A stretch of 64,000 bases of DNA. Source: an uncultured Bradyrhizobium sp. (GTDB lineage Bacteria > Pseudomonadota > Alphaproteobacteria > Rhizobiales > Xanthobacteraceae). Under the pieces are notes generated by a model. It was not told where the DNA came from. It did no database searches and saw only the letters and a program-made list of their open reading frames with translations. This document shows positions 43,307 through 46,572 of this stretch, piece by piece. The stretch's first letter is position 1. Each line of letters starts with the position of its first letter. Location of the stretch: contig NZ_CANSMR010000018.1 of the NCBI RefSeq assembly GCF_947648125.1, forward strand, positions 1 through 64,000, in the 5' to 3' direction. Both the position numbers and the translations under genes were made by a program.

Positions 43307-44170
43307 ATGGAGCATGTGACGATTCGAGCCAATGGCGCGGCGTTCCACGTCGCGCGGACCGGGAGCGGCAGGCCGCTGCTGCTGTTGCACGGCTGGCCGG
43401 AGTTCTGGCTGACCTGGAAGCCTGTGATGGCGCGCCTCGCCGACCGCTACACCCTGATCGCGCCCGATCTGCGCGGCTTCGGCGATAGCGACAAGCCGCA
43501 AGGCTCATTCGGCCCCGATCAGCATACCGACGACATGCTGGCGCTGCTGGACGCACTTGGTATCGGCAAGGCCGGCGTGGTCGGCCACGACGTCGGCGGC
43601 GCCGTGATGCAGCCGCTCGCCCGCAAGGCGCCCGAACGCATCGCCGGGCTGTTCTTCTTCGATTTCGTCTATCCCGGCATCGGGGCGCGGATGGCCGCGC
43701 CGGACCGGCTGAACCACATCTGGTACCAGTCGTTCCACCAGATGGAGATGGCGCCCGCGCTGGTCGGCGCTAACAGAGAGACCTGTCGCACCTATATCGG
43801 CCATTTCCTGCACAACTGGACGCATCGCAAGGCCGCGTTCGACGATGTGATCGAGGACTTCGCCGACAACTTCTTCAAGCCCGGCAACCTCGCCGGCGGC
43901 TTCGCGCATTATCGCGCGTCCCATGCGGGGCGCGTGAAGATGATGCAGGGCGAGGCGCCCGCGCTGCCGCCGATCGCGGTACCGACCTGCATCCGCTGGG
44001 CCGAGCACGACCCGCTGTTTCCCTATGCCTGGACCGACCGGCTGGGCGAGACCTTCTCCAATCTGGACCTGAAGATGTTCCCCGGTGTCGGGCATTTCCC
44101 GCATCGCGAGGATCCCGATCGCGCGGCCGCCGAGATCGCCGGCTTCTTCGGGCGGATCAATTGGAGGTAG
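43307..44170 (+). CDS. Alpha/beta hydrolase, epoxide-hydrolase-like
   Basis: A 287-residue cytoplasmic hydrolase. HGWPEFW (28-34) is the oxyanion HGxP motif of epoxide hydrolases and related dehalogenases, Asp95 in VGHDVGGAV is the expected nucleophile, WAEHDPLFP holds the acid and VGHFPHRED the His. The fluoroacetate-dehalogenase signature (Asp-Arg-x-x-Arg after the nucleophile) is not present, so dehalogenation of fluoroacetate is unlikely. The cap domain includes HFLHNWTHRK. The gene stands alone; its ATG at 43307 follows AGGAGCGGCC. Confidence 0.85.
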   Translation: MEHVTIRANGAAFHVARTGSGRPLLLLHGWPEFWLTWKPVMARLADRYTLIAPDLRGFGDSDKPQGSFGPDQHTDDMLALLDALGIGKAGVVGHDVGGAVMQPLARKAPERIAGLFFFDFVYPGIGARMAAPDRLNHIWYQSFHQMEMAPALVGANRETCRTYIGHFLHNWTHRKAAFDDVIEDFADNFFKPGNLAGGFAHYRASHAGRVKMMQGEAPALPPIAVPTCIRWAEHDPLFPYAWTDRLGETFSNLDLKMFPGVGHFPHREDPDRAAAEIAGFFGRINWR

Positions 44171-44381: not shown

Positions 44382-45539
44382 TCAGGCATCGGCCTTCTTT
44401 GCTTTTTTGGCCTTTTTCTCGTTCTTTGCGTCCTCGTCGTCCTTGTCCTTTTTTTCCGCCTTCTTGTCGTCCTTGCCGTTGTCCTTCTTGCGATTGGTGT
44501 AGCGGGCATTGCCGAGCCCGGTTCCGATCGTCAGCACGCCCCAGCGCGCGACATCCTGCATGAACGGCACCTCGGCCAGTCCCTGCGCCACGCCGTCATT
44601 GTGCATCACGATCGCGGTGTCATGATCGCCGATCTGCGGGATCGCCTCGACCAGGCTCGCCGGCAAGTTGAATTTGCTGCTCTCCCAATTGCCCGGCAAA
44701 TTCTGTGCGCCCTTCTCGATCGAGCCGTCCTCGTTGATGACGCCGGGACAGGAGATGCCGATGAACGGCGCGAGCTTGAGGTTCTCCTTCTCGGCGGCGG
44801 CGATCAGATCCTTCAGCATCTTCACCAGCCGCTTCACCGCGCCTTCGCGCGTCGGCTCGTCATCGGCGTGGCGCCACAACTCCGATTTCCAGACCGCCGC
44901 CTTGGAGAGATCGGGCGCCTTCTTCCAGCGCGTCTCGACGACGCCGCAGCGGATATTGGTGCCGCCGATATCGACGGCGAGCACGCCGTCATGGGCCTCG
45001 AAAATCCACGACGGCGCCAGATGCAGCGTGCCGATCAGCCCGGCATCATCGGGATGAAAGCGGATCGGCACCATGTCGACCTTGAAATCATCCGACTTCA
45101 GGATGATGTCGGTTCGCGCGATGGCGAGTTCGCCGAGCCTGGAGTCGCGGAAGCCGCCGCCGACCACGATGCGCTCGGTCTTGGCCCAGGCCTTGGCGCC
45201 GAGGAAGCGCCGCGTCACATAGGCGAGCTCCTGGGCAAACTCCTCGATCGCACTGTGCACGACCGCGGAGGCCTCGGTGTCGTCGCCGACCAGCAACTCA
45301 TCGAGCTTCTTCTTGCTGATCTTGTCCGACGGCTCGTCGCCGAACGGATCCTCGTCCGACTTGCGCAGCGGCTTGCGCCAGCGATCGAGGATCTTGCGGA
45401 ATGCGCCCTTGGAGGCGCGATCGCCGAGAAAACCCTCGTCGTCCTTCAGCTCGATATTGAAGCTGTCGATGTCGACGGATGGCAGCCGCGCGGCACCGTG
45501 GTGCGCGATGCCTGTGGTCAATCCAGTGTCGTCGGCCAT
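44382..45539 (-). CDS. ROK-family protein with circularly permuted motif order and Lys-rich tail
   Basis: A 385-residue protein in which the ROK sugar-kinase motifs appear out of order. Residues 123-172 (IVVGGGF, later DDAGLIGTLHLA) are the elements that normally end a ROK protein. The ROK start follows: AVDIGGTNIRCGVVE (188-202), GISCPGV (261-267), HNDGVAQGLAE with candidate catalytic Asp315, and TIGTGLGNARY (337-347). After residue 350 comes a low-complexity tail rich in Lys and Asp. The CxCG zinc motif of classic ROK repressors and kinases is absent. The start Met at 45539 is the only one compatible. Sugar or regulator function is undetermined. Confidence 0.8.
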   Translation of the reverse strand: MADDTGLTTGIAHHGAARLPSVDIDSFNIELKDDEGFLGDRASKGAFRKILDRWRKPLRKSDEDPFGDEPSDKISKKKLDELLVGDDTEASAVVHSAIEEFAQELAYVTRRFLGAKAWAKTERIVVGGGFRDSRLGELAIARTDIILKSDDFKVDMVPIRFHPDDAGLIGTLHLAPSWIFEAHDGVLAVDIGGTNIRCGVVETRWKKAPDLSKAAVWKSELWRHADDEPTREGAVKRLVKMLKDLIAAAEKENLKLAPFIGISCPGVINEDGSIEKGAQNLPGNWESSKFNLPASLVEAIPQIGDHDTAIVMHNDGVAQGLAEVPFMQDVARWGVLTIGTGLGNARYTNRKKDNGKDDKKAEKKDKDDEDAKNEKKAKKAKKADA

Positions 45540-45644
45540 TCGCCCTGCCCGCTTGAGGTTCCCAGCACTAACGACGGGGAACTCAAATGGTTGCGTCCCG
45601 CGCTCTGCCGCTCGGCCTGCGCGGGACGCCGTTTCGCAAAGGTC

Positions 45645-46448
45645 TCAGGCGGCCTTCACCCCGTAACGCGCCGCGGGCGTGCTGCGCGACAGGTTCGGCA
45701 TCAGCTTCTGGCGGGCCACCTCATAGGCCTGCCAATCCGCGGCATCCGGCAGCGACGGCACGGTGAAGACCTCGCCCTGGTCGAGGCCGGCCAGCGCAGC
45801 GTTCACCATGTCCTCCGCCTTCATCACGATCTCGCCGGGCAGATGCTCGACCGGCGTACCGGCGATGTCCCAGAACTCGGTGGCCGTGGCCCCCGGCAGC
45901 ACGGCCTGAACGCGAATGTTCTTGTCCTTCAGCTCGTGCTGCAGCGAGTGGGTCAGCGCGAGCACGAAGGCCTTGCTGCCGCCGTAGACGCCGTTGAGCA
46001 GTTCCGGCTGAACGCCGACGACCGAGGCGATATTGATGATGGTGCCGCCGCCGCGCGCGACGAATCCCGGCACCGCCGCATAGGTCAGCCGCATCAGCGC
46101 GTCGACATTGAGCGCGATCATGTCGCTCATCTTGTCGACATCGGATGCGAGCAGCGGCGCTGTGGCACCGACGCCGGCGTTGTTCACGAGCACGCTGATG
46201 CCTTCGTTGCTGCGCAGAATGGATTCGATCCGTGCGACATCGCCGCGCTTGGCTAGGTCGGCGGCGACGATCTCGATCGATCGGCCTGTCTCCGTCGAGA
46301 GACGCTTGGCGAGCCCATCGAGGCGCTCACGGTTGCGTGCAACGAGGATCAGATCGTAGCCACGCCGTGCGAGCCGGTCCGCATAGATGGCACCGATTCC
46401 GGACGACGCACCGGTAACGAGCGCCGTGCCTTTGGCTGACTTGGTCAT
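45645..46448 (-). CDS. Short-chain dehydrogenase/reductase
   Basis: An NAD(P)-dependent SDR of 267 residues. It shows TGASSGIGAIYADRLARRGY (cofactor motif TGxxxGxG), LVNNAGVG, the catalytic Ser in NIASVVG, and YGGSK (catalytic Tyr and Lys). The DltE-like layout is common among rhizobial SDRs. The ATG at 46448 follows CAGGAGACC. It is divergent from a GlxA-type regulator, probably its controller. Substrate unknown. Confidence 0.9.
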   Translation of the reverse strand: MTKSAKGTALVTGASSGIGAIYADRLARRGYDLILVARNRERLDGLAKRLSTETGRSIEIVAADLAKRGDVARIESILRSNEGISVLVNNAGVGATAPLLASDVDKMSDMIALNVDALMRLTYAAVPGFVARGGGTIINIASVVGVQPELLNGVYGGSKAFVLALTHSLQHELKDKNIRVQAVLPGATATEFWDIAGTPVEHLPGEIVMKAEDMVNAALAGLDQGEVFTVPSLPDAADWQAYEVARQKLMPNLSRSTPAARYGVKAA

Positions 46449-46572
46449 GTTGGTCTCCTGTTTGACCTGAACGGCCGGACTTGGCCGTTGCTCAGGTTCT
46501 ACAGGCCCCCTTGAATGTCTCAAATGTCATATATACACCTTTTTAGGACACAGATTGCCGCTGGAGGGTCCC

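Follow-up and report, generated by a model that had tools for sequence, protein, structure and literature searches.

A ROK-family protein of a Bradyrhizobium sp. with the two halves of the kinase in swapped order

The window analyzed here, a 64,000-nucleotide stretch of DNA from an uncultured Bradyrhizobium sp. (contig NZ_CANSMR010000018.1), contains on its minus strand a complete ORF (45539 to 44382; 385 codons plus stop) for a ROK-like protein of a conserved family. A sequence-only reading had proposed that this protein is circularly permuted with respect to ordinary ROK kinases, that it lacks the CxCG zinc site and that it ends in a Lys/Asp tail of roughly 35 residues. This raises the questions of whether the order of the ROK elements is indeed swapped, how such a gene could have originated, and what its product might do. 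A motif check confirmed the residue numbering on which the proposal was built (IVVGGG at 124-129, DDAGLIGTLHLA at 164-175 and DIGGTNIR from residue 190). Judged by names read from the sequence, the gene is flanked by an alpha/beta-hydrolase-like ORF (43307-44170, plus strand) and an SDR-like ORF (45645-46523, minus strand), and ORFs for ribosomal proteins L21 (47780-48247) and L27 (48350-48619) are nearby. The upstream SDR gene was considered as a fixed operon partner and rejected, since only 15 of 80 Bradyrhizobium loci have a relative of it close by.

The native protein matched the Pfam ROK family (PF00480) with 32.5 bits, above the curated cut-off of 22.9, with residues 187-355 aligning to profile positions 2-147. 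This score, together with the presence of the DxGGT, ND, GTG and GGG motifs, places the protein in the ROK family. In the native order this was the single strong stretch, a second one appearing at a lax threshold; after swapping the halves, one continuous stretch was obtained that covered profile positions 2-291 of 294 with 36.8 bits. Separate searches with the two halves, proposed as a check in the earlier reading, gave a divided answer: the DIGGT half alone matched the Pfam ROK profile (26.2 bits), but the GGG half alone remained without a Pfam ROK match even at E 10, and its scores in single-sequence HMM comparisons were weak (best E, 0.0081).

Family profiles were also compared. Scores obtained with hhalign in global and in local mode are not mutually comparable, and the global-mode values were as follows. 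Against 38 full-length ROKs, family columns 1-182 aligned to ROK columns 148-304 (score 32.1) and columns 179-352 to 1-148 (29.8); the DIGGT half taken separately aligned over 1-169 to 4-148 (32.9). When the ROK profile was doubled, columns 1-352 aligned to 148-452 as a single piece with a score of 58.4. In local mode the whole family profile scored 82.4 against the doubled profile, versus a mean of 27.9 and a maximum of 46.0 when its first half was shuffled. The first half by itself scored 51.6 against the full-length ROKs, versus a mean of 14.8 and a maximum of 22.1 for 100 column shuffles and 17.9 for the reversed half; 20 other shuffles of this half reached at most 32.4. Compared with these same ROKs, the DIGGT half reached a local score of 27.6 (shuffled maximum, 21.8), in an alignment that was out of register.

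Predicted structures gave the same arrangement. Residues 182-350 of the AlphaFold model match the initial part of ROK kinases, spanning ~150 residues, and a model of residues 1-183 alone matches the ROK C-terminal lobe, so that the assignment of the first half to this lobe is backed by both fold and profile. There is no second ROK C-lobe beyond residue 345, the chain stopping at residue 385. The single-chain model of the full protein is confident, and model blocks in the tail have pLDDT values of 54-71. For the whole model, the top ROK matches in Foldseek extend over 167-179 columns, and the VIA ROK matches span its DIGGT half only, a partial coverage that is expected of sequential aligners. 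Together, the swapped-halves Pfam match, the doubled-profile alignment and the AlphaFold models support the proposed circular permutation, and we conclude with very high confidence that the order of the ROK elements is swapped in the window protein. A search of the open-licence literature, to which subscription journals did not belong, returned no report of a permuted ROK protein.

These comparisons allow the features to be placed along the minus strand. The GGG half (residues 1-176, 45012-45539) corresponds, by profile comparison and model, to the C-terminal part of ordinary ROKs. It contains a new N-terminal segment (residues 14-40, 45420-45500) that a low-confidence alignment puts at the ExGH/zinc position of ordinary ROKs, and it includes IVVGGG (45153-45170), supported by motif count and conservation, and DDAGLIGTLHLA (45015-45050), which in profile alignments is the end of the ordinary ROK chain. 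The old C- and N-termini are probably bridged by a linker of ~11 residues, PSWIFEAHDGV (residues 176-186, 44982-45014), as suggested by the doubled-profile alignment. The DIGGT half (residues 187-350, 44490-44981), equivalent to approximately the first 150 residues of ordinary ROKs according to Pfam and structure, carries the phosphate-binding motif DIGGTN (residues 190-195, 44955-44972), followed by CPG (264-266, 44742-44750), QNLPGNW (279-285, 44685-44705), HND (313-315, 44595-44603) and GTGLGNA (339-345, 44505-44525), soon after which the chain ends in most members. The new C-terminus lies just after the GTG hairpin, and the new N-terminus where ordinary ROKs enter the ExGH/zinc segment.

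The arrangement is not confined to the window. In species-representative genomes 368 stretches encode relatives, and 77 of the best 80 of these are named Bradyrhizobium. A search of sampled genomes with an alignment of 13 members (E <= 0.001) gave matches in 27 of 199 genomes from the order, 12 of 289 from the class and 23 of 398 from the phylum, these samples overlapping one another. The best match per matching genome spans most of the query, except in G609 (E 9.2e-4, query 182-248). Outside the class, the phylum sample contained six matching genomes: four at E <1e-117, one at 5.2e-107 and the weak G609. Among 72,556 plasmid records 207 matched, 204 of them covering 80% or more of the query; 111 of the matching records are from Rhizobium and 79 from Sinorhizobium. 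No match was found among 50,697 phage records at E 1e-5, and identity as a phage gene was rejected on this ground. The annotated matches listed carry the names 'ROK family protein' or 'hypothetical protein'.

Some individual copies deserve mention. The Bradyrhizobium genomes G171 and G194 have an additional second copy, chromosomal or on a contig. Short fragments in G171 (G171:C151:167219-167341, query 1-41) and G476 (G476:C38:1983-2213, query 283-359) accompany a full copy and are perhaps remnants of duplications. The copy on plasmid p195_2 of Bradyrhizobium sp. 195 lies beside ferritin-like, SDR, PRC-barrel and Hsp20 genes and has an exact EcfG-type box in its upstream region. A Bradyrhizobium-like copy with 80% identity occurs in JAUEPE010000043.1, labelled 'Frankia sp. 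RB7'; this organism label may be wrong.

A set of 54 diverse members with 46-84% identity to the window protein, 51 of which match Pfam ROK at E <= 1, revealed invariant residues in both halves: G127-G129 and D164 in the first, and D190, G192, G193, N195, C264-G266, N280, W285, H313-D315 and G339-A345 in the second. Motifs were counted in 139 proteins, 135 of them distinct, with some genomes represented twice and without correction for kinship. DxGGxN, ND and GGG are present in 139/139, DxGG[TS] in 136/139 and GTG in 138/139. The motifs follow the order GGG, DxGGxN, GTG in 138 of the 139; the one deviating protein, L115, is truncated at the end of its contig and lacks GTG, and was excluded from tail and residue counts. 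The canonical order, with DIGGT first and GGG and GLIGA last, is not that of this family, which we therefore class as a permuted variant rather than as ordinary ROKs.

ROKs typically contain ExGH and zinc motifs, which in ordinary ROKs hold the sugar. ExGH was found in none of the 139 permuted proteins, versus 41 of 43 full-length and one of nine short ROKs; CxCGxxGC was likewise found in 0/139, versus 38/43 and 0/9, in agreement with the claim that the window protein has no zinc motif. Conversely, the Asn of DxGGxN (N195) is present in all 139 permuted proteins versus one of 43 full-length ROKs. In a global alignment that is uncertain in this region, the ExGH Glu and His align to two variable positions, 13 and 16, occupied mainly by Ala. 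Residues kept near the new N-terminus, counted in 43 non-Bradyrhizobium proteins plus the window protein, are H14 (43/44), P20 (42/44), G39 (44/44) and D40 (43/44).

The Lys/Asp-rich tail (residues 351-385, 44385-44489) is exactly 35 residues long, as anticipated, and variable. The length after GTGLGNA has a median of 32 in 95 Bradyrhizobium-type proteins, which include both the window protein and its own-genome copy, versus 11 in 43 others. Tail lengths and the model show that the tail is an addition, mainly a Bradyrhizobium feature, and separate from the permutation. In Pfam the tail also resembled ATP-synthase-E, below the cut-off (20.2 versus 22 bits), and this was taken as low-complexity noise.

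How did the swapped order arise? That two partial ROK genes were joined through misassembly, frameshift or misannotation has practically no probability. Nothing was found in its favor, apart from the fact that Pfam recognizes just one strong stretch in the native order. It is contradicted by an uninterrupted order across many separate assemblies (138 of the 139 proteins), by motifs that stay invariant both before and after the junction and by the confident single-chain model; we rejected it because the order is conserved. The half-wise scores are compatible both with a single ancient gene that was permuted and with two ROK halves that were fused. In the second case the gene would be a chimera, in which the C-terminal half comes from a full-length ROK and the N-terminal half from a short, polyphosphate-glucokinase-like one, formed for example by deletion between neighboring ROK genes; order and fold would be unchanged and only the origin would differ. 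The two halves do resemble different subgroups of ROKs: with local alignment, the DIGGT half scored 102.4 against nine short ROKs (shuffled maximum, 19.5) versus 27.6 against full-length ones, and short ROKs occupy places 1-4 in its HMM ranking, whereas the GGG half showed the reverse, with 51.6 against full-length ROKs versus 22.1 against short ones (shuffled maximum, 21.1). In addition, in one genome (L216) a short ROK and the permuted gene share a gene row. However, the weak score of the GGG half against short ROKs may be due to their reduced C-terminal part, which leaves this half little to match, and the comparison is based on nine short ROKs and on ROK sampling within Pseudomonadota. We regard the chimera as a serious possibility, though somewhat less likely than not. 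The window's own genome encodes a short, non-permuted ROK of 249 residues without the zinc motif (G000:C2:336369-337115, minus strand); it is polyphosphate-glucokinase-like, and its subgroup is the one that the DIGGT half of the permuted proteins most resembles.

Regulatory sequences and neighboring genes were examined for indications of function. The consensus for EcfG-type promoters is GGAAC-N15-18-CGTT. An exact box within 150 nt upstream was present in 17 of 44 non-Bradyrhizobium loci versus 11 of 718 control ORFs; it is missing from the other 27 of these loci and was present in one of 94 Bradyrhizobium-type loci. The one-mismatch form G[CA]AAC-N15-17-CGTT was found in 75 of 93 Bradyrhizobium-type loci versus 57 of 915 control ORFs. 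The 75 include the window, where GCAAC-N16-CGTT (45570-45594, minus strand), with one mismatch to GGAAC, is located at -55 from the start codon. A conserved upstream element, GAAACCAAYGGGTTCCC-N-CCGTTGTCC, is located ~55-65 nt before the start codon (window 45540-45600, and at the same place in Bradyrhizobium loci) and is wider than the EcfG-like match. These promoter data hint that the gene may belong to the alphaproteobacterial general stress/osmoprotectant response. Trehalose synthesis by OtsA/OtsB is reported to be under EcfG control in B. diazoefficiens, where mutants are impaired in symbiosis (PMC8092242), and otsB is reported to be induced by (p)ppGpp in R. etli (PMC3188799, whose text does not mention 'ROK').

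Among 53 neighborhoods other than the 80 Bradyrhizobium loci above (40 genomic and 13 plasmid stretches), an OtsB gene adjoins the permuted gene in 14 and does not in 39. The 14 are four Rhizobium plasmids and one genome sharing their arrangement, two Shinella plasmids, and four plus three genomes of two families; otsB is divergent from the permuted gene in 11 and co-directional in three. The four plus three genomes also have OtsA and a GH15-type gene nearby, three neighborhoods have a PfkB-type kinase and one a short ROK. Of these assignments only OtsB exceeded its NCBIfam cut-off (124.5 versus 68.05), the others staying below (GH15, 269.4/820; PfkB, 117.3/299.65; short ROK, 107/250; OtsA, 502.8/564.85), and the GH15 label is one we presume. 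An NAGGN osmoprotectant M42 peptidase or relative is a neighbor in three stretches, two of S. meliloti and one of S. medicae. At the genome level, OtsB was found in 25 of the 27 sampled genomes of the order that carry the gene versus 72 of the 172 that lack it (Fisher p 3e-7, with no correction for kinship or genome size). In the window no otsB lies beside the permuted gene; the otsB of this genome is on another contig (G000:C23).

Two gene rows stand out. In L216, L237 and L245, co-directional genes for GH15-type, OtsA, PfkB-type and OtsB proteins lie, in this order, within ~6 kb upstream of the permuted ROK gene and together with it look like a trehalose cassette; in L216 only, a short ROK lies between OtsA and the PfkB-type kinase. 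In L236, L242 and relatives, an upstream, divergent gene encodes an OtsA with ~250 extra N-terminal residues and apparent membrane segments, in which the synthase match begins at residue 257.

On balance we lean towards reading the protein as a permuted, stress-linked ROK-type kinase of trehalose/osmoprotectant metabolism. Its chain would run through the remainder of the C-lobe and the final helix (residues 1-176), the ~11-residue linker and the DIGGT lobe up to the GTG hairpin (187-350), and the folded product would be a two-lobed kinase of actin-like fold reached by a different chain path. ATP would be held by DxGGxN, GTG and GGG, and D315 would act as base in phosphate transfer to a sugar, a role that we presume from ROK kinases. 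That the protein is an active kinase is probable on its motifs; that it is a sugar kinase within a trehalose or osmoprotectant module has, in our estimate, an even chance. The substrate would most likely be a sugar of trehalose/osmoprotectant turnover such as glucose; for example, glucose freed by the GH15-type enzyme could be converted into glucose-6-phosphate for OtsA.

With ExGH lost, the protein may act on a different substrate or serve as a sensor. A protein that binds ATP or sugar without phosphorylating, and that regulates OtsA/OtsB or another stress protein, would account for the lack of ExGH and zinc motifs in all 139 proteins, and some ROKs are regulators, those of the Mlc/NagC type being among the structural matches. 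We nevertheless consider this doubtful, because DxGGxN, ND and GGG are retained throughout and GTG in all but one protein, and because no DNA-binding family is among the Pfam/NCBIfam matches. On the latter ground a DNA-binding ROK repressor was rejected. A NagC-type profile of eight sequences, with the N-terminal 70 residues removed, was not matched by the first half (11.3; shuffled maximum, 18.5) and not clearly by the second (21.5; shuffled maximum, 25.0). Less probable still is a more elaborate version of the kinase reading. In it, relocation of the termini would have removed the ROK sugar/zinc segment and created another substrate site, involving H14 and D40, close to the new N-terminus; the product, a stress-induced kinase fused from halves of two different ROKs, would act on a new trehalose/osmoprotectant substrate.

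The permuted kinase reading bears on several matters. The family is a natural permutation of a two-lobed actin-fold sugar kinase that has been kept across alphaproteobacterial lineages and a few other Pseudomonadota, and it offers a ready test of how far the actin-fold ATPase core tolerates new termini beside the substrate site. Colinear profile searches detect mainly one half of such permuted ROKs. The gene also occurs in many root-associated bacteria, in some of them beside trehalose-synthesis genes. Its neighborhood suggests a previously unconsidered role in trehalose/osmoprotectant metabolism that can be put to the test; according to PMC8092242, symbiosis of B. diazoefficiens is normal only when this metabolism is intact.

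Of the known systems, the EcfG-controlled trehalose-6-phosphate pathway of B. diazoefficiens (PMC8092242) is the likely setting, in view of the otsB adjacency in 14/53 neighborhoods and the EcfG-type boxes; however, the term 'ROK' does not occur in the text of that paper, and the window copy is not beside otsB. The short polyphosphate-glucose phosphotransferase-like ROKs (NF045942; relative, 1woq) are closest to the DIGGT half and likewise lack the zinc motif (0/9), but they are not permuted and have a short C-terminal part, and the window protein scores 27 bits against the NF045942 cut-off of 250. With the ROK kinases of PF00480, such as the human GNE N-acetylmannosamine kinase domain (2yhy) and the S. 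griseus glucokinase (3vgk), the family has both lobes in common, as seen in the DxGGT, GxPG, ND, GTG and GGG motifs and in structural matches to both halves; it differs from them in its swapped order, in lacking ExGH and CxCGxxGC, and in having N195.
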